Origin: Sugiyamaella lignohabitans
Taxonomy: Eukaryota > Ascomycota > Dipodascomycetes > Dipodascales > Trichomonascaceae
DNA length: 64,000 bases
Assembly (NCBI RefSeq): GCF_001640025.1
Contig: NC_031673.1
Span: 1,426,001 to 1,490,000, forward strand
Direction: 5' to 3'
Shown here: one piece after another, positions 1,017-56,465 of the stretch
How positions within the stretch are numbered: position 1 is the first letter of the stretch
Layout of the letters: the number at the start of each line of letters is the position of its first letter
The notes under the pieces: model-generated
What the model saw: the letters and a program-made list of their open reading frames with translations, nothing else
Told to the model about the DNA's origin: nothing
The model's database searches: none
Translations under genes and position numbers: made by a program

Positions 1017-1043
1017 TCTGGGTTGATTTTCTGGTGGCAGATT

Positions 1044-1096
1044 GCCTCCGGCGGCTGGGGCGCTGCCCCAGACCCCGTTGTGCTCGCTTCGCGAGC
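1044..1096 (+). repeat. GC-rich element, half copy, GCTCGC-hairpin type
   Basis: It reads GCCTCCGGCGGC, then CTGGGGCGCTGCCCCAG, and ends in the hairpin GCTCGCTTCGCGAGC. It lies 28 nt after the stop of the small membrane-protein gene and is sense to it. Confidence 0.9.
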
Positions 1097-1500
1097 TTTA
1101 GAGGCCAGAGGAGCTGGAATATTCTGTTGCTGGTCCAACAGAATATTCTGAAAGAATTCAGAGGAGTCAGATGACATAAAAACAGTGTTTAAAAGGTGTT
1201 TGTGCGATTATTTTGTAGTTCTAGTCACTGGAGAACTGCAACTCACCGACTGCATCTATCACAATCACCAACATCCAAATCACAATATAATTTCGCATTT
1301 GTATATAAATTCAATTTTCTTGAAGAACTAGAAAAGAACTAAAAAAAATGAAGAAACTACAACACCTTCTGTTCACGCCTGGTCTCCCACGGCATTACTG
1401 ATCAAGGCTCTCCGAGGCTTAAATATGATTGATCGGACGGGAAATCTTGTTTTACTCGAGATGTGGTCGTAGCTGCCATTCTCCCCTCCAAGAACCATTT

Positions 1501-1636
1501 GCCTCCGGCGGCTGGGGCTCCGCCCCAGACCCCGTTGCTCGTGCTTCGCAGGAGATAGCTGGGACCGCGGATGTAACGACTCGAGCGGAGCGAGAGGAGC
1601 CACGGGGTCTGGGGCGGAGCCCCAGCCGCCGGAGGC
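1501..1636 (-). repeat. GC-rich foldback element, full copy
   Basis: The order of hairpins on the + strand is swapped relative to the copy at 329: the left arm ends with CTTCGCAGGAG and the right arm begins CGACTCGAG. It lies between the convergent small-membrane-protein and PAB1 genes. Confidence 0.9.
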
Positions 1637-1656
1637 AGAACCCCAGAAACCGTCCA

Positions 1657-1684
1657 CGGGGGCAGAGCCCCAGTCGCCGGAGGC
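1657..1684 (-). repeat. GC-rich element, degenerate fragment
   Basis: Only the GGGGCAGAGCCCC stem and the end GTCGCCGGAGGC remain. It lies 158 nt past the PAB1 stop, immediately beside the full copy. Confidence 0.7.
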
Positions 1685-1842
1685 AGTGCCCCAAAGAGGC
1701 AGCGAGTCGTTTCACAAATTGTATTATACAATAATACACGAACATTCAGCAGAAAGATGACCATACACGAAATACATACAAAGAAACATAAACAACGCAA
1801 CAAACTCAACTAAACATGTTTACCTCACCCGGGCCGACGCAT

Positions 1843-4542: not shown

Positions 4543-4603
4543 GCCTCCGGCGGCTGGGGCTCCGCCCCAGACCCTGGTTGCTCCTCTCGCTTCGCTCGAG
4601 TCG
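4543..4603 (+). repeat. GC-rich element, half copy
   Basis: This is a forward half copy with the CTCTCGCTTCGCTCGAG hairpin. It sits upstream of PAB1 and downstream of CHD1, facing the second half copy at 4878 across 274 bp of otherwise plain sequence. Confidence 0.9.
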
Positions 4604-4877: not shown

Positions 4878-4939
4878 CGACTCGAGCAAAGCGAGAGGAG
4901 CAACCAGGGTCTGGGGCGGAGCCCCAGCCGCCGGAGGCA
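4878..4939 (-). repeat. GC-rich element, half copy
   Basis: It lies 61 nt past the CHD1 stop, sense to CHD1. The second hairpin carries an AAA loop variant (CTCGAGCAAAGCGAG). Confidence 0.9.
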
Positions 4940-7900: not shown

Positions 7901-9650
7901 ACCCACTTTGAAATCTCGCAACGATTCATACAGAGCCGACTCACTGTTCTTCAATCTATGGGCCTCATCAACTGCCAGAAACTGCCATTTAATAGAACCA
8001 AGCTCACTTCTGTCTTTCAGAATGTATTCATAAGTCGTCAACAAAATATTGAACTTGGGTTTCTTGGACGTCGCATTGATATAAAACTCATAATCCTGAA
8101 TAGTCTTTCTCGCCTGGCTGTTACCAAGATACACAATATAATTAAGATCTGGAGCCCACAAATCAAGTGTTTCCTGCCAAGCAGGAATCGTGGACAATGG
8201 AACCACCACCAAAAATGGCCCGTTCTGTTTACGGGCATAGATCAACCACGACAAAAATGCCACTGTCTGAACTGTTTTACCGAGACCCATCTCATCTGCC
8301 AAAATACCGTTTTCATTTCGTGACCACAAAAACGCCATCCAGTTAAGACCAGTCAGCTGGAAGTCTCGAAGTTCCCCACCCTTGACAAACGACGGCTGTT
8401 CACTCAACTTCTCAAATTTAGGTCTCGTGCTGCCATAACTAACACTATACGAGGGACTGATCTTGGACGAACTCCTACTCTGGAACAAATCCACCTGTTT
8501 AGGTGCTATATCTGCAATCACTTCACCATCCTCCCACGTACAATCATCATAATACAGTCTTTTCCACTTCACTAAGTACTGTAATTTCGTTTTTCCGTCA
8601 TCGTCAACAATTCTTTCCGATAGCACAATACGCTCTACTGTCTTAAATTCCTCATACTCGTCTCTCCGACGCTCGCGTTCCAGGTCCATAGCCTCCAGAT
8701 CCTCTCGTGTAGTCAATGGATCCGACCGGATCTCTCTGTCTAAAAGCACATTCTGACGAATATAATTATCCACTCTTTTCAGACCCTTAAACTGTGTCAG
8801 GTTCCCATATGGCTCCCACGTGTTATGCAAATGTGAGTACCCTTTCCATTTAATCTGCCTCTGTTAGTCTCTGTTCGGGGCTCTGCCTCCGGCGGCTGGG
8901 GCTCCGCCCCAGACCCCGCTGCTCCTCTCGCTACGCTCAAGTCGGGCGTATACAGTCCCCCGCCAAATGCGTGTGTGGTTGACATACATAGTATTTGAGT
9001 CCCTTTTTGGGGTCATCGTCGTTGGCTGCCTCGTCCAAAAGAGCGTGATCAAGGACTTGGTCGATTGAATCAACTGGTTCCGCTTCAACACTCTCTTCAA
9101 TAGCATAGTCTTCGACTTCGTGAGGCTGGTATGTCACCTGCTCTTCGAAATCGTCGTCATCGTCGTCGATGTTATAGTTAACGGTTTTGTTATTTCGTGT
9201 CGAAAACCGTAACTCCGCTGACGAGAATCTGTCACTATCTTCTGCAAAGGCCTGCAGTTTGGCTCGCTTTCGTCGATGTTTACTGGATCCATGCTGATGC
9301 TTCTTTTTCGTCGACCCTCCAAAAGTGTCGTCGTCATCGTCATCCTCATCATCGTCGTCGATATCCTCATCTTCCTCATAGTATGCTGCTCGGGATGCAA
9401 CTGTGGCAGCAGATGGAGGTCGCCCACGTGTTCCTTTGGCCTTTTTCTTCTGACTTCGTTTTCGACTACTTCCACTATCCGAATCATCATTCTCCGAACC
9501 ACTGCTTTCAATATACCTTGACTTGACACGGCGCTTGGTCCCTTCGTCAATATGAAACGGTTCTGGTGGGATATGAGCCCGACGACTACGTCTCAGCCCA
9601 TAAAGCTCGGGATCATTCTCAAAATCTACCGACATGCTGTCTGAAGCCAA
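5000..9650 (-). CDS. CHD1: Chromodomain-helicase-DNA-binding protein 1
   Basis: This ATP-dependent nucleosome-spacing remodeller acts on transcribed chromatin. Exon 1 (9650-8988, 221 codons) joins exon 2 (8854-5000) in phase 0 across a 133-nt intron. The junction reads [18 protein letters not shown], restoring chromodomain 1 exactly, for a product of about 1,505 residues (S. cerevisiae Chd1 is 1,468). In order: an acidic and basic low-complexity N-terminus, chromodomains at about 190-260 and 275-345, an SNF2 ATPase (DEMGLGKT near 406, DEAH near 516), helicase C from about 700, a SANT-SLIDE DNA-binding region at about 1020-1190, a Ser/Thr-rich linker, and a C-terminal CHD1 helical domain at about 1405-1500. 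All ATPase motifs look intact. Confidence 0.96.
8855..8987 (-). other. CHD1 intron (133 nt) holding a half GC-rich element
   Basis: The 5' site is GTATGT at 8987-8982. The branch box GACTAAC (about 8869-8863) is followed by GCAG ending at 8855. The nearer AG just after the branch would bring in a stop codon, so the GCAG site is preferred. The element lies antisense to CHD1. Confidence 0.92.
8885..8944 (+). repeat. GC-rich element, half copy, intronic
   Basis: This forward copy ends in a slightly degraded CTCAAGTCG arm. It lies entirely within the CHD1 intron, 43 nt from the 5' site and 30 nt from the 3' site. Confidence 0.9.
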
Positions 9651-12628: not shown

Positions 12629-12685
12629 CGACTCGAGCGAAGCGAGAGGAGCCACGGGGTCTGGGGCAAAGCCCCAGCAGGAGGC
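12629..12685 (-). repeat. GC-rich element, half copy, damaged end
   Basis: It lies 117 nt past the ULP2 stop, sense to ULP2. The terminal GCCGCCGGAGGC has shrunk to GCAGGAGGC and the stem reads CTGGGGCAAAGCCCCAG. Confidence 0.85.
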
Positions 12686-12801
12686 AGCGAGGGAGACAAT
12701 ACTAGAAGTGAAAATATATGTGTACATGTTTCAATAAATAAGTCGTAAATCATTAGTAGATGTGTATAAATCGCCTGGTCGGGGTGTATAAAAAGACGAG
12801 G

Positions 12802-15800: not shown

Positions 15801-16677
15801 TATCACGAGCGGTGTCATGAACTCCATTCCGCCGGTCCTGTTCATGATCACGACTCGTACTCTTAGAACCAAGTCTATCACTAAAACTCGAAGAAACAAG
15901 CTTACTTCCATGACCCCCACCGTTTGCAGAACTAGCACTTGAACTAGAACCACCTCCTACAGCCGATAATACACCCATCATTGAACGATCCGAATGATGA
16001 TTACTACCTTTTCTCTTTGGAACCAGCCTATCACGGCTGCTATTACTGCCCATAAGTAAACTTCCTTCAGACTCTTTTCGTTTTTTAGAAGGCAATCCAG
16101 CATCGCTGATATTTTTCTGCAGCATCTGGAGCTTTCTCTTACTATGATCAGCATCTTTAGAGTCAGTTACACTGGATCGTCGTTCACCAGGCCTTATGCT
16201 ACCACCACCCAATACAGTAGAACCTCTATTAACCCGAGAATCCAGATTGTTCTGAGGTACATGACTGCCTGTCCGCCATATACCGTTTCGAGCCGAAGAA
16301 GAAGACCCTCCCAGTCGGCCGTTCTGACTGGAATTAGACCCTAGAGATGGTAACAGATCCAAATCCAGCGTTGTTGGATTTCTATAACTAAGCGGTTCGC
16401 CTCGACTGACCGGCTGTACACCTTTCCTCAGCGAGCTGAACGACTCGCTGGCCCTGAGTTTCCTAGGCCGTGAGCCATTTATCAGCTAAAACTGTTAATA
16501 CCAACACCCAACACCCAAAAAAGCTACTATCGCACTACCCATGACCCCTCCAACAACGACTCGAGCGTAGCGAGAGGAGCCACGGGGTCTGGGGCAGAGC
16601 CCCAGCCGCCGGAGGCGCATCGTCCCCCTACTCGTATCACTTACCATGACATCACTCTCGTCCTTGCGAGAGCCCAT
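12802..16677 (-). CDS. ULP2: SUMO-specific cysteine protease Ulp2/Smt4 type
   Basis: This nuclear protease dismantles SUMO and poly-SUMO chains. An 11-codon first exon (16677-16645, ATG) joins exon 2 (16485-12802) in phase 0, giving about 1,238 residues. Exon 2 alone has no ATG near its start, so the tiny exon supplies the initiator. The C48 peptidase core spans about residues 690-985: LNDTILNLFLR substrate-side motif, catalytic His794 in HWY, Asp904 in FILDSLK and Cys957 in DCGIYV. Long Ser/Asn/Arg-rich N-terminal and acidic C-terminal arms, including a nine-Asp run, are typical of Ulp2 rather than Ulp1 and may carry nuclear targeting and SUMO-interaction sites. Confidence 0.93.
16486..16644 (-). 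other. ULP2 intron (159 nt) holding a half GC-rich element
   Basis: The 5' site is GTAAGT (16644-16639), the branch box is TATTAAC (16500-16494), and the 3' AG ends at 16486. An earlier AG immediately after the branch box would place a TAG in frame. The splice is phase 0. Confidence 0.85.
16557..16616 (-). repeat. GC-rich element, half copy, intronic
   Basis: It lies inside the ULP2 intron and reads GCCTCC-first in the ULP2 direction, unlike the antisense copies in the CHD1 and TAF2 introns. Confidence 0.9.
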
Positions 16678-17101: not shown

Positions 17102-17161
17102 GCCTCCGGCGGCTGGGGCTCCGCCCCAGACCCCGCTGCTCCTCTCGCTTCGCTCGAGTCG
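17102..17161 (+). repeat. GC-rich element, half copy
   Basis: This forward half copy has the CTCTCGCTTCGCTCGAG hairpin. It sits about 430 bp upstream of the ULP2 start. Confidence 0.9.
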
Positions 17162-18157
17162 GTGTTTGGCGGTCCCTTGTAATTTTTGTCGTTTTTTGGG
17201 ATGAGATACAATCTGGGAGTCCCGGTATATAGGTATTTTCACGTATGGTCTTCTAAATTATATTAATATCCATGCGTATGGCCAGGTGCAGTCATATTCC
17301 ATGGAAAAAAGAGAGACATTGGCGGGTGGTAGGTTGACATTTTGACTTTTATTTAGCTTTCTAGCATAGAAACTCAGCCTGGAACCCTTTAGATAGCTTG
17401 AGAAAGAATTTGCGGTAGGGTGATAGTATGTCTGGTAACAAGTTAATGTATCGTCTAGCTGTGGACTGTTATATTTTTGTCATAATTATTTTTTATTTAG
17501 GATAGTGTGTGGAAATAGTAGTTAAGTAGTTGGGTCATAGTCAAGAAGACTTTCTCAGAAGTATCGAGACTATGACGTTTGTTTCAGTGTCTTACATAAG
17601 GCGAAGTGAGTTTAATGCTATATTTATACACAGTAGGCAGTAGCTTGTTGTTAAATTACATATTTAATTACATTTTATATTGGGAAATGGAATCCGCCAG
17701 GTTTTTTAATGCGTCTCTGACACTTTATGTTCATCGGGCCCTTTTTTTACTAACCTCAGATGCGCTCTACCAAAATTAGATTTTGGCATAGCTATGACCA
17801 CCTTCTTCACTGTAGCCCTCTAAATTCCATTCAGGAATAATTCTTTATGCCAGTCTGTTTCAAGCTGAGCTTGTATGCGTATGAATCACTCTGAAGTGTT
17901 ATTTTGCCATATTTACTTGGACTGTTAATTCTAACAGCATTAGCTCCCTCCTACTAAGTTCCATATGAATTCAGCATTAAATTCTCTGATTGTACTCCAA
18001 CTGTGCTTTCTAAATATCACCGGAGGGGGTAACAGTGGTCATTGGATCTACTGTTTTGAAGGCAAGGGGGTTAATATATTTTCAGTACGCTTGAACCAAT
18101 TGCTGGGTCATTCATCGACCCTGTGTGTCCAATTCCTTTTGCTTACGGTACTAGAAA

Positions 18158-18212
18158 CTCCTGCGAAGCAGGAGCAACCAGGGTCTGGGGCGGAGCCCCA
18201 GCCGCCGGAGGC
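18158..18212 (-). repeat. GC-rich element, half copy, GCAGGAG-hairpin type
   Basis: It begins CTCCTGCGAAGCAGGAG and ends GCCGCCGGAGGC, in the middle of the desert. Confidence 0.9.
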
Positions 18213-19518: not shown

Positions 19519-19579
19519 CGACTCGAGCGTAGCGAGAGGAGCAATGGGGTCTGGGGCTACGCCCCAGCCGCCGGAGGCA
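19519..19579 (-). repeat. GC-rich element, half copy
   Basis: A CGACTCGAGCGTAGCGAG hairpin is followed by CTGGGGCTACGCCCCAG, where the loop triplet varies but both stems are kept. It lies about 480 bp upstream of TIM44. Confidence 0.9.
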
Positions 19580-21494: not shown

Positions 21495-21636
21495 GCCTCC
21501 GGCGGCTGGGGCTGCGCCCCAGACCCCCCGGCTCCTCTCGCTGCGCTCGAGTCGGGCGTCGACGGGCCACTGTCTACGGAATCTCCTGCGAAGCAGGAGC
21601 AACGGGGTCTGGGGCGCAGCCCCAGCCGCCGGAGGC
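21495..21636 (+). repeat. GC-rich foldback element, full copy
   Basis: It occupies most of the 243 bp between the TIM44 stop (89 nt away) and the zinc-finger stop (14 nt away). Both arms carry matched loop changes (GGGGCTGCGCCCC and GGGGCGCAGCCCC), so the two arms remain mirror images. Confidence 0.92.
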
Positions 21637-24574: not shown

Positions 24575-24713
24575 GCCTCCGGCGGCTGGGGCTCCGCCCC
24601 AGACCCCACTGCTCCTCTCGCTCCGCTCGAGTCGTTTGCGTCAGGAACCCCCCGTCAACTCCTGCGAAGCAGGAGCAACCAGGGTCTGGGGCGGAGCCCC
24701 AGCCGCCGGAGGC
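24575..24713 (+). repeat. GC-rich foldback element, full copy
   Basis: It begins only 10 nt after the CWF19 stop and ends 65 nt before the stop codon of the oppositely oriented SDR gene. The spacer carries GGAACCCCCCGTCA rather than the more common GGTCCC word. Confidence 0.92.
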
Positions 24714-27748: not shown

Positions 27749-27802
27749 CTCCCGCGAAGCAGGAGCTACGGGGTCTGGGGCGGAGCCCCAGCCGCCGGAG
27801 GC
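27749..27802 (-). repeat. GC-rich element, half copy, GCAGGAG-hairpin type
   Basis: Its first hairpin is CTCCCGCGAAGCAGGAG, with one changed stem base. It lies tail-to-tail with the next copy, separated by 22 bp. Confidence 0.9.
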
Positions 27803-27824: not shown

Positions 27825-27878
27825 GCCTCCGGCGGCTGGGGCTCCGCCCCAGACCCCGTGGCTCCTGCTTCGCAGGAG
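27825..27878 (+). repeat. GC-rich element, half copy, GCAGGAG-hairpin type
   Basis: A forward half copy. With its neighbour it forms an inside-out pair in which GCCGCCGGAGGC and GCCTCCGGCGGC face each other, opposite to the order in full copies. Confidence 0.9.
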
Positions 27879-31288: not shown

Positions 31289-31348
31289 CGACTCGAGCGT
31301 AGCGAGAGGAGCCACGGGGTCTGGGGCGGAGCCCCAGCCGCCGGAGGC
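31289..31348 (-). repeat. GC-rich element, half copy
   Basis: An inverted half copy about 520 bp upstream of the DEP1 start. It forms an inside-out pair with the copy at 31378. Confidence 0.9.
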
Positions 31349-31377: not shown

Positions 31378-31431
31378 GCCTCCGGCGGCTGGGGCTCTGC
31401 CCCAGACCCCATGGCTCCTGCTTCGCAGGAG
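31378..31431 (+). repeat. GC-rich element, half copy, GCAGGAG-hairpin type
   Basis: The stem reads CTGGGGCTCTGCCCCAG and the copy ends CTCCTGCTTCGCAGGAG. It is the last element before an element-free block of about 8.9 kb. Confidence 0.9.
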
Positions 31432-32066
31432 AATTCCGACCGGCTCAGACTGAAGTAGGAGCCAGTGTATGGTGACGTTCATGTTCCAGGAGTCTCGTAG
31501 AAGTTCGGATTATGTGGAACATGGCACGGGAGGTTCACGTGTGGAGCTATTGAGGAGCTGGTTAGTTCCGTTCGGCGAAGATAGTAGCAACGTGGACTCG
31601 GTGTTGGGAGGCAGTTCATTAGGGAAAGATTCGTGTTTTGTTGGGGCCAGGGAACTCTTGGTAGGTTCTTATCAACAGAGATAAGCTACGGATGCATAAG
31701 AAACCGTTAGATAGGTACGATTATTAGTCTGCATGCAGGCTTGGGATCTGCCACCGGGCATCGTCGATCAGGTACCAACCGTTCCAAGGTTCAGGGAGGA
31801 AATAGAGTACTTGCGAGTGTTATATTGCAATCTGGTATGATATCCCAGAATGATAAAAGATTAATTATCGGTCTAGGGGTATGAAATTCAAACAAGAGTT
31901 ACCCCAGTCACGGGACGAGCCCTCCTCGACGAGTTTGCCATGCATCAGCTACAAGCTTACGGGGATGGCCCTGCCGACTTTCAGGCTGTATGAGGTTGGA
32001 AGCTTGTACGGGCGGAGCTCAAGTAACATATGAAGGGATATTTAAGGAATATGTGGTAGCGATTTT

Positions 32067-40306: not shown

Positions 40307-40359
40307 GCCTCCGGCGGCTGGGGCGCTGCCCCAGACCCCGTTGTGCTCGCTTCGCGAGC
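40307..40359 (+). repeat. GC-rich element, half copy, GCTCGC-hairpin type
   Basis: It lies 27 nt past the SPB4 stop and is sense to SPB4. It is nearly identical to the copy at 1044, including the GTTGTGCTCGCTTCGCGAGC end. Confidence 0.9.
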
Positions 40360-40413
40360 ATCCTCCACACCCTTCGTGAACTTTCTGAAGAAAATGCCTT
40401 ACCCGCAGACGCC

Positions 40414-40473
40414 CGACTCGAGCGAAGCGAGAGGAGCAGCGGGGTCTGGGGCGGAGCCCCAGCCGCCGGAGGC
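40414..40473 (-). repeat. GC-rich element, half copy
   Basis: It lies 34 nt past the ULA1 stop and is sense to ULA1. With the SPB4 half copy it makes a composite inverted pair built from two different hairpin types. Confidence 0.9.
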
Positions 40474-42246: not shown

Positions 42247-43447
42247 CCACGCTTCAATGGTTCTGCTCTCTTCTATAGACCTGTTGACCCAGTTGTGTTG
42301 TGTCTAGAAAAACAAACTATATCTCCCATTCACATCCACAGTCTGATTACCATCACCTCCATCATCTCCACCATCACCAGCTGCTCTCCGATAACCTGCA
42401 TTTTATGATAATGTACCCTAACCCTCATTAACCCCAGGTGGTTCTCCGAAGGTTCCAACCATCTTGAAACAGCTTTTCAAACATGTCACCCTACTCTCTT
42501 GAATGCTCTGAATCCATTAAACTAGTTTTTAACTCGACACCGCTCTCAATAGTACCAATAAAGGACCGTAAAGCAACTACCTGTCACGTGATAAAATATG
42601 CACTTTCCCCCCTGAGTTTCCTATATCGGAAACCTGACAATGTCACTCGAAACTCTCATTCTCTATCCTCTGGCAAGCCAAAACCCGCACAAAATCTCTA
42701 AAACCGTCCAAAAACTCAAACTTTTACGATATCCCATCCTACTTCTCATCCCGCAGAACCCATTAAAACTCTAATTAAAAACTCCTTGGGACCCCAACAT
42801 TAAATTTTCACCCAAAACATCCACTAACAGCCGTATATATACTATTTATACACCATCTTCATAGCCCCACAAACCAGCAATTCTCGAAACGACTGGGACC
42901 CGCAAGCCCGACTCGAGCGAAGCGAGAGGAGCAGCGGGGTCTGGGGCGGAGCCCCAGCCGCCGGAGGCAGCACCCAACCCTTTTTTATTTGACCCGCAAC
43001 CGCACCTCCACCTGGCAAAGGCACGTAGATTCACCCCCTGAGCAGCTGCATATATCACGTAGATCCACCATCACAGCCCTAACCCGGCTAAATATTCTAT
43101 TTTTATGTCACTGAGCCTCTCTGACATGCGAGAGACTGTTTACCACCTTTCATTGTACATGTACCGCAACAGCAGCGAGAATCAGGATTTTGCATTTGAC
43201 GTTTTTATTAATCCGGATTTGCACTTGTTTCAATAGAAGTCGACCATCACTCGCTTTTGTCCATTATTAACCCGGATTTTTTACGCAATCGGGTTCAATC
43301 ACCAGCTTAAAAAGTACTGGATCCGAGTTCACGTCAGCGAGACTATTCACTCGTCAGACCAGCCACAACCGACCTGAGCATTTTATCAAAAGAAAAAAAA
43401 AGACTCTTCAGAACACCAGGAAACCACAACTAAAGACCACAAAAGAA
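42247..43447. other. Divergent intergenic region, ULA1 and ROT1
   Basis: About 1.2 kb with one half GC-rich element (42909-42968) and no supportable gene. The CACGTG core in GTCACGTGAT near 42583 is a possible E-box for a Cbf1-like factor. Confidence 0.45.
42909..42968 (-). repeat. GC-rich element, half copy
   Basis: A clean inverted half copy about 480 bp upstream of ROT1, in a promoter rather than a 3' setting. Confidence 0.9.
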
Positions 43448-44355
43448 ATGAAGTCGTTTCTGTTGATATTCACATCGCTAGTAGCGGTGTGCTGCGGCCA
43501 GAGCATGAACGACTTGGAAGGCACCTGGTCGTCGAAATCCAACGCTGTCTTCACAGGCCCCGGTTTCTACGACCCAGTTGACGAGCTCCTCATCGAACCA
43601 GCCCTCCCTGGCCTCAGCTACTCGTTCACATCCGACGGGTTCTGGGAGCAGGCCATCTACCAAGTATCCGGAAACCGTAAGTTCGCCAACCTGTGCCTCC
43701 GGCGGCTGGGGCTCCGCCCCAGACCCTGGTTGCTCCTGCTTCGCAGGAGATAGGGACCGTAGACGCAACGACTCGAGCGAAGCGAGAGGAGCAGCGGGGT
43801 CTGGGGCGGAGCCCCAGCCGCCGGAGGCACCCCCCATCCCTCCTCGTGAACAATACTAACGACATGACAGCCCAAGACCCGAAATGCCCGTCTGGCGTGT
43901 TGTTGTTTCAACATGGCAAGTACGAGATCCTGAGTAACGGGTCTCTTTCATTGACTCCTTTCGTTGTTGACGGCCGACAGCTGGTGTCGGAACCCTGTAC
44001 CTCGGACACCGCTAATTACATGCGATACAACCAGTCGGAGTTTTTCAAGAGTTTCGATGTCCAAATCGACGAGTATCATGGCCGTTACCGCTTGGATCTC
44101 TTCCAGTTTGACGGCTCGCCTTTACCACCTCTTTACCTGGCATACAAACCTCCCATGATGCTGCCTACCGAGACCATGAACCCCACTGCTGCCGGTCAAG
44201 CCACGTCCACGAGCACGGTGCAAAAGGTCCGTCGAGCTCTGGAAAACAGAGGCAAAACCACTGCTGTTCGCAAGGACGTGCCCGATCTCCGTGGCCTCTG
44301 GTGGATCGGAGTGTCTCTCATCTTCGTCGGTGCCACTGGTTGGTACTGTTTGTAA
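43448..44355 (+). CDS. ROT1: ER protein ROT1
   Basis: An essential ER membrane chaperone-like protein needed for beta-1,6-glucan and cell-wall protein folding. Exon 1 (43448-43676) joins exon 2 (43871-44355) in phase 1, giving 237 residues (S. cerevisiae Rot1 is 256). The junction yields QVSGN-P-QDPKCP, matching the family. A signal peptide occupies about residues 1-18. Hallmarks follow: GTWSSKSNAVFTGPGFYDP, then VDELLIEPALPGLSYSFT, the paired cysteines, and PLYLAYKPPMMLPTETMNP. A C-terminal transmembrane anchor (LWWIGVSLIFVGATGWYCL) ends the protein. Its intron is filled by a complete GC-rich element. Confidence 0.96.
43677..43870 (+). other. ROT1 intron (194 nt) holding a full GC-rich element
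   Basis: It has GTAAGT at 43677-43682, the perfect box TACTAAC at 43854-43860 and GACATGACAG at the 3' end. The element starts 18 nt after the 5' site and stops 42 nt before the 3' site. Confidence 0.95.
43695..43828 (+). repeat. GC-rich foldback element, full copy, intronic
   Basis: Left arm with CTTCGCAGGAG, spacer GGGACCGTAGACG, right arm CGACTCGAGCGAAGCGAG. It is nearly identical to the copy just past the same gene's stop (44422-44555). Confidence 0.93.
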
Positions 44356-44421: not shown

Positions 44422-44555
44422 GCCTCCGGCGGCTGGGGCTCCGCCCCAGACCCTGGTTGCTCCTGCTTCGCAGGAGATAGGGACCGTAGACCTAACGACT
44501 CGAGCGAAGCGAGAGGAGCAGCGGGGTCTGGGGCGGAGCCCCAGCCGCCGGAGGC
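44422..44555 (+). repeat. GC-rich foldback element, full copy
   Basis: It lies between convergent ROT1 and TAF2, 67 and 45 nt from their stops. It differs from the ROT1 intron copy by very few bases over about 134, so the two are recent relatives. Confidence 0.93.
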
Positions 44556-47500: not shown

Positions 47501-49146
47501 TGCAATGGGAAATGTGAAATTGGGGTTTCCAATTGGTGCTCTGCCAATATCTTGTCTACAGATCTCCTCAGCCCTTGTTTTCAGTCGGAATCTGTACTCA
47601 TTATTCCCGAGAAGTCGCCTCAGAAACATGTTGGACATATAGCTGGCAACTCCTATCGTCACCCATAGATCATTCCAGGTCCGGGGCACAATATTAATAC
47701 CACACCACTGGGTAGCTAGAGCAACTGTAAGCTGTTCTGTCACTGTGAATAGCGGTTCTATCAGCTCAGGAGGGAATAGCAGCGTGTCACTACAAATAGC
47801 CAGCGATGAAGCATTGCCAATGTCAATAGTAGCATCCGCTACAAAACACAGAGAAAACGCCGAGAACGGGTACGACCCAAACTCATGTGTGAAAAACTCC
47901 ATAGCTTTGTATAGGAAAATACACGTATTTGTCGCCTCTACCACCTTATCTGCAAACGTATACACAGAAATAGGAATCGCTTTACTCTGCTCCTCGCCCG
48001 TCTCGTCCTCCTCTGCTAGCTTCAAATCCACTATCGGCGTCTTAACAAACGGGCCCACCACAAATCCGACATGGTGTGCCGAGATCGGGTTGAACAACTG
48101 GAACGTCGTCACTTTTTTGCTCGCGTCGAACGGATGAATCTCCTGTGTTGTGTTAGTTTACTTGGTTTCGGGGTGGGCATGGCCTCCGGCGGCTGGGGCT
48201 CCGCCCCAGACCCCGCTGCTCCTCTCGCTGCGCTCGAGTCGGGTGTGGGGTGTCCAGCTGTTAGGGGAATGGGGGTTGCGGTGCTTACCTCTGATGGTGT
48301 GGCATTATTGCATACGACTATGATATCGAGTTCCGACTCCTCGGAGTCTCCGTCGTCGTCTTCGTTTTCGTTCTCATTCTCGTTCTCATTTTCTCTTTCT
48401 AAGTCGTTTGGGTTCTCGTTATTTGTACTGTCAACATCCATAGCATCTGTGGGCTTATTTTCAGGTGCATCTGATTTTTTATTTGTTTCTGGCGTGCCTA
48501 CAGTTCGCGGAACAGACACTTGTAGCTCCCAGGTGCTGAGCTCCCACAACCCGTCTACACAGGGCAGCCAGCTGCTGGTCGACTGGCCAAGTGGATCGTG
48601 TGTCGTGTACGCATGCCAGAATTGTCTTTTTAGATTGCTATCAGCACCACCGACAAATCTGAACCCGGAGGTGCTTCCATATGTACTGAAATCGATCTTG
48701 ACGGTCAACGGGTGACAGATCATCATATCTGGTGAAACCCATCGCGATAGAGATGCTAGTGACGAGCTCGCAAGCGAAGCGTCTTCTTGAGGTACCACTT
48801 TAAGCCCTTTTGGCAGCTGCATCACAAGCTCGCCAGGTAGAGTATCACGAAGTAGACCGTCGATTTGTTTGGCGTAGAAATGATGTTGGTGAACAGAGGT
48901 GGACGAAGGCATTTTGGCATTGCGAAGCGCGTCCACATGTTCAAAAGAGGCTTTTCTACCATTTATTAGCACATTCTCAATCCTACTATTGCGACAATCA
49001 AGAGTGATTTGCTTCAGACCAACATCAGTCGGAATGATGGTCAATTCAGTCCAACCTCGAATCCATTTGTTCGTTAGATCAACATCTATCGATATCTTCT
49101 GATGAGCGACTCGGAACCCGCGATCAATGCCGCCATAGCCATCCAT
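44600..49146 (-). CDS. TAF2: TFIID subunit TAF2
   Basis: The large TFIID subunit that contacts initiator DNA around the transcription start. Exon 1 (49146-48289, 286 codons from the first true ATG) joins exon 2 (48142-44600) in phase 0, giving about 1,466 residues (S. cerevisiae Taf2 is 1,407). It has the M1-aminopeptidase-like fold: FRVAHQKISIDVDL at the N-terminus, TSGFRFVG and SSWLPCVD. The junction leads into EIHPFDASKKVTTFQLFNPISAHHVGFVVGPF. The zinc-binding HEXXH of real aminopeptidases is absent, as in all TAF2. HEAT-like helices and a Pro/Ser/Thr-Lys-rich tail follow. A Glu-Asn repeat (NENENENENED) and an acidic run sit just before the splice site. Confidence 0.94.
48143..48288 (-). 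other. TAF2 intron (146 nt) holding a half GC-rich element
   Basis: The 5' site is GTAAGC, the branch box AAACTAAC (about 48159-48152), and the 3' end CAACACAG. The element is antisense to TAF2, 47 nt from the 5' site and 39 nt from the 3' site. Confidence 0.92.
48182..48241 (+). repeat. GC-rich element, half copy, intronic
   Basis: Forward on the + strand inside the TAF2 intron, with the CTCTCGCTGCGCTCGAG hairpin. Confidence 0.9.
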
Positions 49147-50138
49147 ACTGGTCAAGCAAGACGCCAAGTGCCGTCCTGGCCAAGAAAGCTAGTTTTTCGG
49201 GCCCTATGTTTATATGAATGGAAATCTATGTACACGGCTGGTGTTGCCGATGCTGTTTGCTGCTACTGCCAAAAGTTTAATAAATATCTTTCTCCAATGA
49301 CGAATTGAACTGTGGTCCTATAAACTTGGAGGCACACCTATTCTTTTTTTTCTTGTATTCAGGCCACACTCGTCCCGAATATTCGGTCTTCAGTTGATTT
49401 ACTACTTTCTCCATGTCGAGCATGTCGGTCGGTCGTGAAGTTCCAGCCGTGCCATTGAACCAGTCCAGGCCGGGTAATCTAGCTACCCAGGGTCACGTCA
49501 GGGTCTGATATTTATGGATAATTTCGAAGGTTGAATACAAATCTCGTGGTATGTTTGATGCTCTTCTGGTGGAGAGATTTCTGAAGTCAGAAATGAAGAA
49601 GGGTTTTGAGCTGGAAGACGGTTTTTAGCGCCAGCCCCTGTTGACTGGTCCACTGAGGTCAGTTATATTCTGGAATCGGGTTTTTATGGCTTTTTCTTCT
49701 TTAATGGCTCTTTTGGTATGAATTGAGTGGTTTTTGTGGTAATGGTAATAAAGAGAAATGTCCAGGCCAAGGCTTAAAATCGGTGAAAAAGTCTCAAATT
49801 TTCATACTGGGGTTTAAATTCCGAAGCCAACCCCCAGTATCAAAAACAGAGCACGTTACGAGACGCACGACTCGAGCGAAGCGAGAGGAGCAACCAGGGT
49901 CTGGGGCGGAGCCCCAACCGCCGGAGGCAGACCCACGACCCCTGAGTATGCAGGGACTCTCAGGGGAAGATGTATGCAGGAGGAACGGGAGAAGATAAGC
50001 GTCGCGATATCTGGAGCTGATAAGAAGTCAGTGCGGCTCGAGGAGATTGCGACAGTTGTGGTTTATTGACCAGGAGATTATTTTTATTTGGATTTGCGGA
50101 CTTTTTAAACGAGCTGTGACTACAGAGACAAGAGAGCG
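49147..50138. promoter_or_regulatory. Divergent intergenic region, TAF2 and BTN1
   Basis: About 1 kb with one half GC-rich element at 49868-49928 and no open frame of substance. I see no clear TATA box. Confidence 0.45.
49868..49928 (-). repeat. GC-rich element, half copy
   Basis: It sits about 210 bp upstream of the BTN1 start. One inner base differs (GCCCCAACCGCCGGAGGC). Confidence 0.9.
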
Positions 50139-51685
50139 ATGAAGCTGTCTGTTTCGTGGTCTGGAAGGACGTTTATTAGTTTTTGGATCTTTGGTCTCGT
50201 GAACAATGTTTTATATGTGGTGATCTTATCAGCAGCGATAGATCTGGTGGGCACCGAGACCCCTAAAGCCACAGTTTTGCTGGCAGATGTTTTACCTGCT
50301 CTGATAGTCAAGACAACAGCTCCTTTTTATATTCACATGGTTCCATACTGGTTCAGGATATACCTGTTGATTCTACTCAGTTTCACGGGCATGATCTCGA
50401 TCGCGTTCTGTGAAGGTCTTCCCCAACGTCTGTTTGGAATTGCCCTGGCATCAGCGTCTTCAGGTCTTGGAGAGATCTCGTTTCTGCAATTGACACATTT
50501 CTACGACTCATGGTCGCTTGGCGGGTTCAGTTCAGGAACAGGAGCAGCAGGTCTTGTTGGCAGTTTTGTGTTCATGATGCTCACTTCATGGATGGGCATC
50601 ACCACCAAAACTTCCCTGATCATGTTCAGTCTAGTACCCATTCTATTTGCTGTTGTATATAAATGGGTTCTCCCATCGTCCGAGGGCTCACGAGACCATT
50701 CTCGTGATTATACACCAGTCCAAGGAAACCTTCCTGACTACGACGAACCGCTTACTTCGAGTCACAATCACAGTCCAACGGCCCATCAATCAGCTGTTGA
50801 TGTTTCCGAACAACCTGATTTTTCTGCTGCTGCTGATGAAGAATCTGCTATTGATAAACCCGTTCACGGATCAATTGACGTGGCTCGAACCCTCCAACGA
50901 CTACGGCCACTAGTCGTTCCGTTCATGTAAGTCCTCCTCTCTTTCTTCCCTCATTCCCTTTCATCTCCCGCTGAAACACTAACCTCCAGGCTGCCACTGA
51001 TGCTTGTCTACATCGGCGAGTACGTCATCAACCAGGGCATCTCGCCCACTCTGCTTTTCCCGCTCGAAGACATGCCCTTCGACCGCTACCGCGACGCCTA
51101 CGTCGCCTACGGCACCCTCTACCAACGTGAGTCCTCGCCTCGTGCCTCCGGCGGCTGGGGCTCCGCTCCAGACCCTGGTAGCTCCTCTCGCTACGCTCGA
51201 GTCGTTTCTCCCGGGAATTCCCCTGTCAACTCCTGCGAAGCAGGAGCAACCAGGGTCTGGGGCGGAGCCCCAGCCGCCGGAGGCACACCGCCAACCCGTA
51301 AACTAACCGTTTTGCAGTGGGAGTGTTCATTTCGCGGTCGTCGTCGCGGTTCGTGAGGATCCGGAAGCTGTATTTGCCCGCGGTTCTTCAGACCGTGAAC
51401 GTGTTTGTGTGTGTGATCCAGTCGATGTACATGTTCATTCCGAACGTATATCTAGTGATGCTTCTTGTTTTCTACGAGGGACTATTAGGAGGTCTGGCGT
51501 ATGTCAACACGTTCATGCTCGTGTCGGAGACCGTGCCACTTCCCGACCGCGAGTTCGCAATGGGTGCAGTCGGAATCAGCGACACCACGGGCGTCACAAT
51601 CGCCGGCGTTATCAGCATGTTCCTGGAGAAATCTCTCTGTCGCTTCCAACAGAGCACAGGACGTCCATGGTGCGAACTGCCGTGA
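50139..51685 (+). CDS. BTN1: Vacuolar membrane protein BTN1 (CLN3/battenin)
   Basis: The yeast homologue of the Batten-disease protein, a multi-pass vacuolar/Golgi membrane protein linked to vacuolar pH and basic amino acid balance. Three exons (50139-50926, 50990-51126, 51318-51685) give 430 residues (S. cerevisiae 408, human 438). Family wording: [50 protein letters not shown], then [11 protein letters not shown]. After the junctions come [27 protein letters not shown] and [17 protein letters not shown]. About ten hydrophobic helices are visible, with a polar, His/Ser/Asp-rich cytosolic loop between residues 185 and 260. The unspliced frame stops just after exon 1. Confidence 0.95.
50927..50989 (+). 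other. BTN1 intron 1 (63 nt)
   Basis: It has GTAAGT at 50927-50932, the branch box CACTAAC (50977-50983) and CTCCAG at the 3' end. It splits the ATG of VPFM after two bases. No GC-rich element. Confidence 0.93.
51127..51317 (+). other. BTN1 intron 2 (191 nt) holding a full GC-rich element
   Basis: It has GTGAGT (51127-51132), AAACTAAC ending at 51307 and CGTTTTGCAG at the 3' end. The splice is phase 1 and gives YQ|LGVF. The element starts 17 nt after the 5' site and stops 33 nt before the 3' site. Confidence 0.94.
51144..51284 (+). repeat. GC-rich foldback element, full copy, intronic
   Basis: The left stem has one mismatch (CTGGGGCTCCGCTCCAG). The spacer carries CTCCCGGGAATTCCCC, unlike the ROT1 copies but shared in reverse with the copy at 51730. 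Confidence 0.92.
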
Positions 51686-51729: not shown

Positions 51730-51861
51730 GCCTCCGGCGGCTGGGGCTCCGCCCCAGACCCTGGTTGCTCCTGCTTCGCAGGAGTTGACGGGAGATTCCC
51801 GGGGAGAAACGACTCGAGAGGAGCAGCCAGGGTCTGGGGCGGAGCCCCAGCCGCTGGAGGC
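51730..51861 (+). repeat. GC-rich foldback element, full copy with internal deletion
   Basis: It lies 45 nt past the BTN1 stop. The right arm has lost the GCGAAGCGAG half of its second hairpin (CGACTCGAGAGGAGC), and its end reads GCCGCTGGAGGC. It is therefore a worn copy. Confidence 0.9.
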
Positions 51862-51874: not shown

Positions 51875-51935
51875 CGACTCGAGCGGAGCGAGAGGAGCTA
51901 CCAGGGTCTGGGGCGGAGCCCCAGCCGCCGGAGGC
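51875..51935 (-). repeat. GC-rich element, half copy
   Basis: It lies 58 nt past the KRR1 stop and sense to KRR1, directly beside the worn full copy. This suggests a second insertion supplied an intact arm. Confidence 0.9.
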
Positions 51936-51992: not shown

Positions 51993-53398
<1,406 letters not shown>

Positions 53399-53722: not shown

Positions 53723-53734
53723 GGGTGCCCTCGT

Positions 53735-53794
53735 GCCTCCGGCGGCTGGGGCTGCGCCCCAGACCCCCCGGCTCCTCTCGCTGCGCTCGAGTCG
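53735..53794 (+). repeat. GC-rich element, half copy
   Basis: It lies 13 nt past the small basic gene's stop and is sense to it. It has the GGGGCTGCGCCCC loop and ACCCCCCGG variant also found at 21495. Confidence 0.9.
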
Positions 53795-53888
53795 GACGTG
53801 GGGAGTCCCTTTTTATGAGTTACGACCCAAGCATACATGAAATAAATAAGAGAAATAAATAGAAACTCGCCCCCTACGGTCCCAGCCA

Positions 53889-53943
53889 CTCCTGCGAAGC
53901 AGGAGCAACCAGGGTCTGGGGCGGAGCCCCAGCCGCCGGAGGC
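53889..53943 (-). repeat. GC-rich element, half copy, GCAGGAG-hairpin type
   Basis: It lies 10 nt past the BIT61 stop and sense to it. With the copy at 53735 it forms an inverted pair spread by 94 bp of unrelated spacer. Confidence 0.9.
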
Positions 53944-53952
53944 ACAACCCCC

Positions 53953-56139
53953 TCATCGGCGGCTCATGACCACGCCGCGACGGTCTTTGCCCGCTCGGGG
54001 TCTGCTGAGCCAGCTTTTGCGGACGACAAGGGCCAGGTGGTCGATTTGCGCCTGGTGAGAGTTGCTGGATTGGATGAGCGACAGGACGTTGATGCACTGG
54101 AGAATGCGGACAGCGAGGTCTGAGAGTGAAGACGAGGTCGAGCTGTTGAAGTCGAGCGAGTCGACGGTGATGGCTGATTCGAGACGTGAAGTTACGGGGA
54201 TGATGACGTGGTCGCGGAAACTCATGAGAATGAACCGACGGGTGTCGAGGGGGTCTTTGGCGGCAATGTCTTTCCAGAAAGGAGGTGCGTTGTCTGGTGA
54301 TAGAAGTTTGCCTGTTCCTTGAAATTCACATTGAAGAGGTAGAAAGATGGCTTCGAGGTATGGAAGTACGTCAGTGAAGAAGAATACCCACAGTTTGACG
54401 AGGTTTGGAAGAATAACGGTATTGTCGGATTTGACGAGATTCACTTCAAATGAGTACATGCCAGCACGAAGAAGTTCTTTGAACTCGTTCATGATCAGTC
54501 GGGCAGTGGCTGAACTGCCCTGTTGGATCAGAATGCTCATGTGCATGAGAATCAGGTTATTCAAATCCTCTACAGGCACTCTCAGTCCGTCCCCAGAAAA
54601 GAGTCCTATAACTCGTGATCGTAAAAGTGACCATGATCTGTCAAGCACCTGGTCTCGTTCTTCCTTCGTTCCCATGTTTTTCAATTCTACTACACCAGGG
54701 CTCGATGGGTTGAACGAGTAAATACTGCCTTGTTCAGAAATCAGTTTCGAGTTCGACGACGAAGAAGACAACCCATGCGAATCTTTTCGAGGTCGGAATG
54801 TCAAATGGTGCTTGATTTTCTCACTAGAAACTGAACTTCCTACCCCACTTCCTCCCGAACCAACTCCTCCACTTGCACCTGCTCCACTACTTCCACCAAC
54901 ACCTCCACCACTAACGCCATTTCCAATCACACTTCCAGATCCACCAGCACCACCACCAGTTCCACCAACAATGCCATTAATCGAACTCGACGAGCCAATC
55001 AATGTCGAATTCGACCCGTTATTCAATCCACTCAGTGCTCCATTGGATGCATTGTTCGAACCAGCTGCTGTTCCTGATGTAGTAGACGTCCGGTCACTGG
55101 CCATTATAGTACTCAACGATCCGATAGACGCTATTCTCTCGAGTTCACGAGACGGTCTGGCCAGTGGAGACCTTTCACTGATAGAAGGACGGCCCGATAT
55201 TGGCGGCAAGCTTGTTTGTATAGTCAAATCAACGACATTCTTTTTACGAGACGAGGAAGAAGACGACCCAGACCCGCCGCCTGAAGTATGTGAATGTGGT
55301 TTAGTGGCCTGTCTTGCGAACATTTTGGCTTTCGAAAGAGCACTTTCTTTTGGTTTGGATGCAAATACAGCTGCTGAAGCCGCTGCTGCTGCGGAAATCT
55401 TGTTTCTTGCGATACTGGACCTGCTACTTCCCGAGCTACTACCACTATTCCCACTGGCAGCACCTGGGGACGACAAAATCGATGCCGACGGAGTTATTGG
55501 CAGTCCGAGTCCTGATCCACCATCTGAATACACATATCCCGAGCTGTTTTCCATGCCGAGATTGACTGAAGTGTTCGGATACTGGCTCACGGTCCCGCCA
55601 GAGCCCATACCACCACTAGAACCACTAGTGCCATGAGCTCCGCTATTACCACCCGTGAAGTTGATGCTGTTGGCAGTAGCATTGAAATTGCCAGCACCGA
55701 GCCCATTTATACCACTGTTATTGCTATTGTAGTTGTTATTGTTATTGTAATGGTAGTTATTGTTATTGCTGCTGCTGCTGTTAGCGAACCCGGCTGATGT
55801 CTTGAGAGTAGCAGCCTTAGCAGCGGCCTCAGACGGACTGCTGTTATTCGGTGAATTGCCCGACTGAATACTTCCCAGCCGCGAAGACGAAGTCATCGAT
55901 CCCATTGACTGTCTTTTACCAATAACTCCGGGTGACGAAGTGTAACCACCCCCCTGAGGACCCTGAGACCCAAACTGAACGGCACCAGACTGTCCCGAGC
56001 CCGCAGTCCCGGTCACAGCTGGCGACGAAGTATCCGATCCAGTTCGCTGCATCCCGACCGGCGACAGCAGCGAGCTCGACGCCGATGACGACGACGAGTT
56101 TGTACGTGTCCTTGAATGAGAAAAGCTGTTCCTCTTCAT
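53953..56139 (-). CDS. BIT61: TORC2 subunit of the BIT61/PRR5 (HbrB) family
   Basis: HbrB-domain proteins (yeast Bit61/Bit2, human PRR5/Protor) are peripheral subunits of TOR complex 2 at the plasma membrane. I use the first true ATG in frame (56139), giving 728 residues; the frame stays open to 56196 without an ATG, so a short upstream exon is possible. About 470 N-terminal residues are low-complexity Ser/Gly/Asn, including Asn-Tyr and Gly-Gly-Ser runs. The HbrB region at about 490-690 contains LDRSWSLLRSRVIGLFSGDG, then LRVPVEDLNNLILMHMS, FEVNLVKSDNTVILPNLVKL and VFFFTDVLPYLEAIFLPLQ. The large Gly/Ser N-terminus is lineage-specific. Confidence 0.82.
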   Translation of the reverse strand: MKRNSFSHSRTRTNSSSSSASSSLLSPVGMQRTGSDTSSPAVTGTAGSGQSGAVQFGSQGPQGGGYTSSPGVIGKRQSMGSMTSSSRLGSIQSGNSPNNSSPSEAAAKAATLKTSAGFANSSSSNNNNYHYNNNNNYNSNNSGINGLGAGNFNATANSINFTGGNSGAHGTSGSSGGMGSGGTVSQYPNTSVNLGMENSSGYVYSDGGSGLGLPITPSASILSSPGAASGNSGSSSGSSRSSIARNKISAAAAASAAVFASKPKESALSKAKMFARQATKPHSHTSGGGSGSSSSSSRKKNVVDLTIQTSLPPISGRPSISERSPLARPSRELERIASIGSLSTIMASDRTSTTSGTAAGSNNASNGALSGLNNGSNSTLIGSSSSINGIVGGTGGGAGGSGSVIGNGVSGGGVGGSSGAGASGGVGSGGSGVGSSVSSEKIKHHLTFRPRKDSHGLSSSSSNSKLISEQGSIYSFNPSSPGVVELKNMGTKEERDQVLDRSWSLLRSRVIGLFSGDGLRVPVEDLNNLILMHMSILIQQGSSATARLIMNEFKELLRAGMYSFEVNLVKSDNTVILPNLVKLWVFFFTDVLPYLEAIFLPLQCEFQGTGKLLSPDNAPPFWKDIAAKDPLDTRRFILMSFRDHVIIPVTSRLESAITVDSLDFNSSTSSSLSDLAVRILQCINVLSLIQSSNSHQAQIDHLALVVRKSWLSRPRAGKDRRGVVMSRR

Positions 56140-56254
56140 CCTCGACCTGCCAAAATGACTGGCCAGCTCTTCGTGATCATCATACCGCTTCACCACCGAT
56201 TCAAAAACAGCCGGTTATTGGAACATGAGTCGGATATGCAGGGCGGTGGACCCT

Positions 56255-56270
56255 GCCTCCTGCGGCTGGG
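56255..56270 (+). repeat. GC-rich element, small remnant
   Basis: GCCTCCTGCGGCTGGG is the terminal word of the family with one change and nothing after it. It sits just upstream of BIT61. Confidence 0.5.
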
Positions 56271-56356
56271 TGTCAGGTATGTTTCCGAAATCATACGGGT
56301 AAATACATGTCCGAGGAATTTGAAATACTCGTCAGGGGGGACCTCGACGGACGAAC

Positions 56357-56417
56357 CGACTCGAGCGAAGCGAGAGGAGCAACCAGGGTCTGGGGCGGAG
56401 CCCCAGCCGCCGGAGGC
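56357..56417 (-). repeat. GC-rich element, half copy
   Basis: It lies 49 nt past the lipase stop, sense to the lipase gene and within the lipase-BIT61 spacer (327 bp). Confidence 0.9.
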
Positions 56418-56465
56418 AGACCCCCGTCCCGTGCGTATCTAGCGGATCTATAAAATACAGGTGGT

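Follow-up and report, generated by a model that had tools for sequence, protein, structure and literature searches.

The 64-kb stretch of Sugiyamaella lignohabitans DNA analysed here (the window; C4:1426001-1490000 of a genome of 15,932,016 bases on 4 contigs) carries genes of budding-yeast type, among them those for a poly(A)-binding protein and for CHD1-, TAF2-, KRR1-, Spb4-, Tim44- and Rot1-like proteins. Named relatives of one window protein include Trichomonascus vanleenenianus and Blastobotrys adeninivorans. A review credits the species with 16.0 Mb on 4 chromosomes, 50% coding sequence and dispersed 5S genes (PMC5499181), and our own estimate of the coding share, obtained with a 5-mer coding model, is 47-50%. 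The non-coding DNA of the window is studded with a GC-rich hairpin element, the subject of this report, whose copies are strongly enriched just past stop codons and, when they stand there singly, nearly always point in the same direction relative to the gene.

The unit of the family is an arm of approximately 60 nt that is rich in GC and contains two hairpins, each closed by a three-base loop. The commonest arm type (A) runs from GCCTCC to GAGTCG, and a T stands directly before the arm in 91% of 54 lone A arms, preceded in turn by a G-rich stretch. Hairpin 1 has the form CTGGGGC-NNN-GCCCCAG. Its loops were surveyed among 266 candidates (TCC 133, TCT 28, GCT 26, TGC 19, TTC 7 and others) in a scan that demanded paired stems and therefore leans towards conserved stems; some of the candidates are chance stems. 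A compensated form of this hairpin, CCGGGC-TCT-GCCCGG, occurs in 47 copies spread across all four contigs. Hairpin 2 varies by type yet stays paired, as CTCCTGC/GCAGGAG in type B, GCTCGC/GCGAGC in type C, and CTCCGC/GCGGAG or CTCGAGC/GCTCGAG in further variants; only imperfect pairing is seen in type A. Both the position profile of the 54 lone A arms and the stem and loop scan show conserved stems and variable loops.

A full copy of the short, non-coding element usually consists of an A arm and a B arm that face each other with GCCTCC outward, spanning approximately 137 nt, such that the arms form terminal inverted repeats. Facing pairs make up 67 of 179 elements, and 45 of these 67 are 132-145 nt long. 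Sixty facing pairs have cores 60-130 nt apart, compared with four minus-minus, two plus-plus and no minus-plus arrangements at the same spacing. Given that facing pairs are defined by spacing alone, some of the copies called full will be two independent halves at convergent gene ends.

The arm core GCCTCCGGCGGCTGGGGCTCCGCCCCAGACCC has 6,463 matches in the genome at three or fewer mismatches (3,205 on the plus and 3,258 on the minus strand), and the reversed core, searched at the same limit, has none. A near-uniform group of 5,484 copies retains hairpin 1 and its borders intact with any loop. One rare loop variant (56 copies) seems to be unevenly distributed among the contigs. The genes around the elements are nuclear, and contigs C1, C3 and C4 measure 5.9, 2.8 and 2.3 Mb. 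No Rfam family matched the element in the window at gathering score, where the sole match was a 5S ribosomal RNA (rRNA) gene. This is a high-copy, GC-rich, non-coding hairpin family of a budding-yeast nuclear genome.

The window was supplemented with 200 kb adjoining on C4 and with 50 kb of contig C1. The resulting element-rich sample (C4:1366001-1566000 and C1:1000001-1050000; 250 kb, or 1.6% of the genome) supplied the counts below unless another scope is given, and a single domain, C4:1569-1630 kb, served as the element-poor comparison. Gene ends were predicted from coding segments called by the 5-mer model, 85 of which reach a stop in the rich sample; segments without a stop were left out of the 3' counts. 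A hidden Markov model (HMM) of the arm recognised 264 arms in the 314 kb analysed. Also left out were arms within 200, 60 or 300 nt of block ends (depending on the count), gene ends less than 500-600 nt from a block end and, where two matches overlapped, the weaker one.

An element lies within 160 nt past the stop of 57 of the 85 segments, compared with 16.1 +/- 3.5 (maximum 32) in 500 runs in which elements were placed at random anywhere in non-coding DNA, and HMM-detected arms raise the count to 61 of 85. Chance is thus excluded as the source of the 3'-end enrichment. The 5' side shows no such excess, with 16 of 89 edges observed and 17.4 expected by random placement. When the distance is relaxed to 250 nt past a stop, 71 of 190 elements qualify (46 of 120 lone, 25 of 70 paired). 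An earlier note on this DNA had proposed that 18 of 21 genes in the window carry an element 10-160 nt past the stop codon, which proved slightly high. In our own list of 21 open reading frames (ORFs), which may differ from the 21 genes of that note, an element follows the stop within 160 nt in 16 cases, and a limit of 213 nt brings the number to 18.

Not every gene end is marked, in that 24 of the 85 genes of the rich sample lack an element in the 160 nt that follow the stop. The element-poor domain (C4:1569000-1630000; approximately 61 kb) is more extreme, with only two arms detected by HMM among 27 ordinary gene ends, 23 of which have no element within 160 nt. In 12-kb windows this domain has a GC content of 0.41-0.43 and a third-codon-position GC of 0.37-0.42, compared with 0.44-0.52 and 0.41-0.58 in the rich part; its coding density is on the whole higher than that of its neighbours, and the transition takes place within approximately 12 kb. 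Element density tracks the GC content of element-masked non-coding DNA (Spearman 0.76 for the C4 block and 0.71 for its rich part). Our first guesses are that the domain is a recombination-poor or an introgressed segment. A GC-rich segment that points to several ancestries has been described in Lachancea kluyveri (PMC5499181).

The orientation of lone halves at gene ends is striking. Where the nearest element within 160 nt past a stop is a lone half, it reads GCCTCC-first in the direction of the gene in 28 cases and the opposite way in two (p = 9e-7). Outside the window, the same count gives 22 sense and 1 antisense (p = 6e-6). With the HMM arm set, there are 32 sense and two antisense lone halves, of which 25 and 1 lie outside the window. 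The two central proposals of the earlier note, a position past the stop and a fixed orientation, hence hold well in DNA beyond that on which they were made. Its stronger statement, that every 3' half is GCCTCC-first, is correct for all ten copies it listed (for minus-strand copies the position number is the low end of the arm, such that 4878 denotes the arm with its core at 4907-4938), and is broken by the plus-strand half at 8885, which stands 20 nt beyond the stop of the minus-strand ORF 8937-9635 and so reads antisense to it.

Half copies elsewhere had been described as mixed in orientation, and this is only partly so, since halves on the 5' side lean antisense. When the search is confined to 160 nt from a 5' edge, the nearest lone halves are antisense by 9:1 (p = 0.02), or by 11:3 in the HMM set (p = 0.06), and within 250 nt the ratio is 13:5 (p = 0.10) or 15:5 (p = 0.04). 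There is therefore a weak tendency for the GCCTCC end to lean towards the coding sequence on the 5' side as well. As a guess, these antisense halves could mark the ends of divergent transcripts.

The orientation bias could be trivial if lone halves were merely the gene-proximal survivors of facing pairs, because whichever arm of a full copy lies nearer to the gene must read sense, and its direction would be biologically uninformative. Facing pairs are indeed frequent, and the lean of 5'-side arms towards the gene fits this scheme too. We nevertheless consider it very improbable, because full copies are themselves oriented by arm type. Among 55 pairs of up to 156 nt, 13 full copies have one stop, and no more than one, within 250 nt, and every one of them has its A arm towards the gene; the distal arm is typed B in 11 of these and untyped in two. 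Palindrome geometry cannot yield such a bias. Six full copies lie between two stops, where the arrangement from the nearer stop is A-B in two, B-A in two and otherwise in two; when the nearer stop of convergent cases is added, the tally is 13 A-B to 2 B-A. The related idea that lone halves are remnants of decayed pairs was rejected, as few have a partner remnant: one scoring at least 30 within 250 nt is found on the tail side of 20 of 111 lone halves, compared with 18 of 111 on the other side. A G-type tail is carried by 31 of 62 typed lone A arms, compared with 8 of the 51 A arms that belong to canonical pairs.

Sixty-one genes have a first arm that reads sense and begins no more than 200 nt past the stop, at a median distance of 43 nt (quartiles 33 and 75). 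Upstream of the arm in these genes, the frequency of A falls from 0.34 at -40 to -30 to 0.16 at -20 to -10, while T holds steady at 0.38-0.41 across -40 to -10. A/T hexamers of the type known from yeast poly(A) signals are present in 31 of the 61 stop-to-arm intervals, and in these 31 genes the last such motif stands a median of 36 nt before the arm. From element-less genes, 24.4 hexamer-bearing windows would be expected directly after the stop and 9.0 when the windows start 300 nt past it. Because the motif count is near that of element-less ends, the stop-to-arm interval looks like the usual 3' end of a yeast gene and not like a specialised one. Near 3' ends, the upstream motif precedes 18 of 35 paired and 19 of 48 lone arms; away from sense 3' ends, it precedes 8 of 103 and 6 of 75. 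To judge from base composition and motifs, the elements probably lie past real poly(A) sites. Several genes, however, have only 8-15 nt between stop and arm, too close for some arms not to be within the mRNA unless the poly(A) site is inside or after the element, and these short intervals hold no A/T motif.

The position of the elements is roughly that expected of a pause or termination element, and a role in 3'-end formation, transcript stability or polymerase release is possible. One explanation for the whole pattern is that the arm is a co-opted terminator, namely a directional pause or release element maintained by selection against read-through between close convergent genes. Its fixed direction after an A/T-rich, poly(A)-like stretch is what such an element would show, and the G-rich run before the arm on the sense strand resembles the G-rich pause sites that follow poly(A) signals in human genes (PMC3145960). 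Stem sites also change somewhat less often than the unpaired ACCC, with 14.6 transitions per site compared with 24, and this lower rate may reflect some constraint. However, if RNA structure were under selection, C-to-T changes, which keep a G.U pair in the sense RNA, might outnumber pair-breaking G-to-A changes. Compared in mirrored sequence contexts, they do not show such a bias (62 vs 55), and we dropped the notion that selection at the RNA level is revealed in this way. Paired arms are slightly more often unmutated near 3' ends than elsewhere (89% vs 79%, p = 0.18) whereas lone arms are not (67% vs 79%, p = 0.09), and so 3'-end copies are not clearly better conserved than others. The coding score, used as a proxy for expression, does not differ between 55 genes with and 14 genes without an element (p = 0.90). 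The many stops that lack an element in both the rich and the poor samples, the 119 of 190 rich-sample elements that lie elsewhere than within 250 nt past a stop, and the arms that closely follow a stop with no A/T motif further argue against a terminator, and the 24 element-less genes of the rich sample mean that a 3'-end role cannot be general. We therefore judge a co-opted terminator unlikely as the main explanation, albeit one that deserves consideration.

A different possibility is that elements insert anywhere in non-coding DNA and in either direction, and that only those copies that disturb promoters or point the wrong way are purged. ORFs are almost free of elements (4 of 179 inside, or 3 of 139 and 1 of 40), only 2 of the 34 lone arms that are nearest to a stop within 160 nt read antisense, and the share of lone arms in the sense-3' position is higher among diverged copies with two or more edits (10 of 22) than among unmutated ones (26 of 89), as purging over time would predict. 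Yet the 5' side holds about as many elements as random placement would put there (16 vs 17.4), and lone arms with an unmutated core are already strongly enriched and directional: 26 are sense-3', two are anti-3' and 61 lie elsewhere, which places 29% at sense 3' ends compared with 4.7% by random placement. Among paired arms, the share is 0 of 16 for diverged and 27 of 114 for unmutated copies, and with lone and paired arms taken together it is flat (53 of 203 for unmutated arms and 10 of 38 for those with at least two changes). Divergence therefore gives no uniform trend, and retention by itself seems to us an improbable account.

The earlier note had left the choice between a 3'-end function and insertion targeted to 3' ends, and insertion is the better fit. 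It is favoured because unmutated lone arms are both enriched and oriented (26:2) and full copies are oriented by arm type, because 3' copies are not clearly better conserved and the stems show no G.U preference, and because most stops of the element-poor domain carry no element. Accordingly, our preferred reading, to which we assign a probability of roughly 0.47, is that this is a mobile two-arm hairpin family that is directionally installed at polymerase II 3' ends and spreads by insertion. Insertion would strongly prefer the DNA just downstream of the poly(A) sites of polymerase II genes, and transcription would set its direction, with the A arm first and GCCTCC leading. Such insertion could be coupled to 3'-end events, for example through the non-template strand that a termination R-loop leaves single-stranded, or alternatively through a tether to the cleavage machinery. 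Both mobility itself and the manner in which orientation is set are matters that we infer.

Several observations weigh against directed insertion. The majority of rich-sample elements, as noted above, lie away from the region just past stops, and insertion alone does not account for the presence of only two arms in C4:1569-1630 kb. One extra full copy has its B arm nearer to the gene, 222 nt from the 3' edge of a stop-less segment; it is absent from the count of 13 given above and appears when segments without a recognised stop are included. Uniform copies could also arise by gene conversion, and hence an unmutated core does not have to be a young one. A comparison of exact direct repeats of 2-8 nt at offsets 0-2 with shuffled pairs gave no clear target-site duplication at the 67 full copies. 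Each class held 0 to 6 copies, near the shuffled level, and the largest excesses were 3 vs 1.0 (2 nt, offset 0) and 2 vs 0.3 (4 nt, offset 2). No empty site was recognised, as 150 of 159 flank matches proved to be further arms and the other nine were not examined. Finally, no mobilising enzyme was identified in searches for three families (Y1 transposase, Helitron Rep/helicase and reverse transcriptase), and the one long interspersed nuclear element (LINE) family examined does not share the element's ends, having an ATT-repeat 3' end and no core in the shared 4,685 nt.

The candidate sources of mobility that we considered can be summarised briefly. Mobilisation of the RAYT type was rejected because the genome has no match to the Y1 transposase PF01797, a search that was positive in 5 of 14 control genomes. 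The Helitron Rep/helicase PF14214 likewise gave no match, and the 14 control genomes were equally silent. Thirteen reverse-transcriptase matches are present in the genome. A non-LTR (long terminal repeat) retrotransposon was observed in two copies (L035 2104-5541, minus strand, and L036) that are 99.1% identical over at least 4,685 nt; it has endonuclease and reverse transcriptase domains and an ATT-repeat tail, and its 5' end lies outside the stretch. Use of a resident LINE in the manner of a short interspersed nuclear element was rejected for the one LINE family examined, because there is no common 3' end. We also noted that bases 2-4 outside the ends of 61 full copies are complementary between flanks at a frequency of 0.43-0.51, compared with 0.30-0.39 after shuffling (z 2.2-2.5), with an isolated column at position 16 (z 3.1) and a predicted flank duplex of -16.1 vs -14.8 +/- 0.6 kcal/mol when shuffled. 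This signal was too weak, and copy-specific flank complementarity was set aside as a clue.

The family resembles several known systems in part. Like REP, REPIN and BIME elements, it consists of short extragenic hairpin units that occur singly or as inverted doublets at high copy, as is described for bacterial REPs (PMC3116915, PMC2817692). It differs from REPINs in being nuclear, in having two hairpins per arm and in the lack of a Y1 transposase match; its 6,463 core matches compare with 1,422 REPs reported for one bacterium, and its orientation at gene ends contrasts with REPIN doublets, which are reported to be random in extragenic space. REP elements are also reported to facilitate Rho-dependent termination (PMC3116915, PMC2817692).

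Double-hairpin elements are known from mitochondrial genomes. The GC clusters of mitochondria are likewise GC-rich, palindromic, mobile-looking units of intergenic DNA in which loops vary; all four differences between two species in GC42 fall in loops, and the abundant clusters are flanked by AG or ACT direct repeats (PMC4478555). The present family differs in lying on nuclear contigs, in showing no clear duplication and in being oriented at 3' ends. Miniature inverted-repeat transposable elements (MITEs) are short, non-coding elements with inverted ends that are found at very high copy near genes. Our family shares the small size, the lack of coding capacity, the inverted ends, the copy number and the closeness to genes, but it has no clear target-site duplication, its arms also occur alone and it is directional at 3' ends. 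MAZ elements are, to our knowledge, not a dispersed repeat family. The likeness to pause elements of the MAZ type resides in a G-rich run downstream of a poly(A) signal (PMC3145960). Given that the yeast family has no Y1 transposase match, lies outside the organelle and shows no clear target-site duplication, we assign it neither to REPINs nor to GC clusters nor to MITEs.

Look-alikes were also encountered in bacteria, where the core CGGCTGGGGCNNNGCCCCAGACCC is present in at least 80 stretches of genomes from Rhodobacteraceae, Desulfovibrionaceae and other groups. These resemble hairpins of intrinsic terminators: among the matches listed, 62 distinct sites have enough flanking sequence, 32 of them with a predicted ORF stop no more than 150 nt away, and four look-alikes have CCTCCGG just before the core. 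They show no direction bias, with 10 sense, 9 antisense and 13 both, while 25 lie in predicted ORFs and five in neither setting. A longer form reaches only 0 to 7 copies per genome and occurs in 5 of 12 genomes at three or fewer mismatches. Common descent was dropped because the look-alikes are few per genome and not oriented, and we take the similarity as probably convergent. Among plasmids there were three short Streptomyces matches, and among phages none. Four look-alike stretches (L050, L070, L113 and L076, from Desulfovibrionaceae and an Acetobacteraceae metagenome-assembled genome, MAG) share the same 32-nt form, apart from the loop in three of the four, which includes GCCTCCGGCGG; in L070 and L050, a TAA or TAG triplet in any frame stands 1-2 nt before it. 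In the proteobacterial MAG CANMLD (L038, L051-L053 and others), the hairpin core lies within a longer repeat on many contigs.

The elements of the window are collected in the table below. The 5S rRNA gene at 1354-1474 (minus strand) adjoins the full element at 1501-1636. The full copies at 43694-43830 and 44421-44557, which are 727 nt apart, are 99% identical over 137 nt, a likeness that may reflect local duplication or conversion. A separate repeat of 72 nt occurs three times (59317-59388, 59654-59725 and 60036-60107, at spacings of 337 and 382 nt), the second and third copies being 79% and 89% identical to the first.

Table. Hairpin elements of the 64-kb window, with strand and neighbouring predicted gene ends
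Feature	Position	Strand	Setting
Full copy (A then B arm)	329..470	+	
Half copy	1044..1103	+	sense, 27 nt past stop of ORF 711-1016 (+)
Full copy	1501..1636	-	206 nt past stop of ORF 1843-3981 (-)
Weak arm fragment	1659..1685	-	18.5 bits
Half copy, A type	4543..4602	+	no stop within 160 nt
Half copy, A type	4878..4938	-	sense, 61 nt past stop of ORF 5000-8689 (-; CHD1-like)
Half copy	8885..8944	+	antisense, 20 nt past stop of ORF 8937-9635 (-); the single exception within 160 nt in the window
Diverged half copy	12629..12688	-	sense, 113 nt past stop of ORF 12802-16125 (-)
Half copy	16557..16616	-	
Half copy	17102..17161	+	
Half copy, B type	18155..18212	-	
Half copy, loop variant	19519..19578	-	
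Full copy, A arm proximal	21495..21636	+	88 nt past stop of ORF 20063-21406 (+; Tim44-like); coding segment 21650-22204 (-) ends 12 nt beyond
Full copy	24575..24713	+	between convergent ORFs 22631-24565 (+) and 24779-26449 (-), 9 and 65 nt past stops
Half copy, B type	27744..27802	-	
Half copy, B type	27825..27880	+	
Half copy, A type	28040..28099	+	
Half copy	28448..28507	-	sense, 106 nt past stop of ORF 28614-30773 (-; Sds3-like)
Half copy, A type	31289..31348	-	
Half copy, B type	31378..31432	+	
Inverted pair, C-type and A-type halves	40307..40473	.	convergent ORFs 38424-40280 (+) and 40507-42246 (-); each half sense to its own gene, 26 and 33 nt past stops
Half copy, A type	42909..42968	-	
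Full copy	43695..43828	-	between two 5' edges
Full copy	44422..44555	-	convergent ORFs 43864-44355 (+; Rot1-like) and 44600-47902 (-; TAF2-like), 66 and 44 nt past stops
Half copy	48182..48241	+	overlaps 3' part of ORF 48109-49146 (-), predicted end; coding signal stops at 48290
Half copy, A type	49868..49928	-	
Full copy, A arm proximal	51144..51284	+	213 nt past stop of ORF 50139-50930 (+; CLN3-like)
Full copy	51730..51861	-	A arm faces stop of ORF 51993-53015 (-)
Half copy	51875..51935	-	sense, 57 nt past stop of ORF 51993-53015 (-; KRR1-like)
Two facing halves, AT-rich spacer	53735..53943	.	between ORFs 53399-53722 (+) and 53953-56139 (-; HbrB-like), 12 and 9 nt past the two stops
Half copy	56357..56417	-	sense, 48 nt past stop of ORF 56466-58592 (-; patatin-like)
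Half copy, C-like	59017..59065	+	
Half copy, B type	59182..59237	+	
Half copy, A type	60572..60631	-	
Half copy, C type	61489..61541	-	
Half copy, hairpin-2 stem variant CTCGAGC/GCTCGAG	61563..61617	+	
Full copy, diverged ends	61920..62056	+	
Full copy, diverged ends	62216..62351	+	

It is well known that some mobile elements target promoters or polymerase III genes. We are not aware of one that labels the 3' ends of polymerase II genes with a constant orientation. In the open-licence literature searched, no title among the matches listed describes the present elements or any mobile element with such a preference. Should insertion prove to be coupled to termination, the family would be a natural recorder of the place and direction in which transcription ends, and if the element also acts, a single repeat would be rewriting 3'-end architecture across much of a genome. 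A broader reading, which we offer as possible but doubtful, is that the family is a eukaryotic nuclear counterpart of REPINs that reads the direction of transcription, is installed past poly(A) sites as a single arm or an A-B pair, and may act as a terminator or insulator. Were this true, a selfish repeat would have given most 3' ends of whole chromosome domains one directional structure. Given that this yeast carries thousands of copies, and that neighbouring genes without an element provide built-in controls, the question is directly testable.

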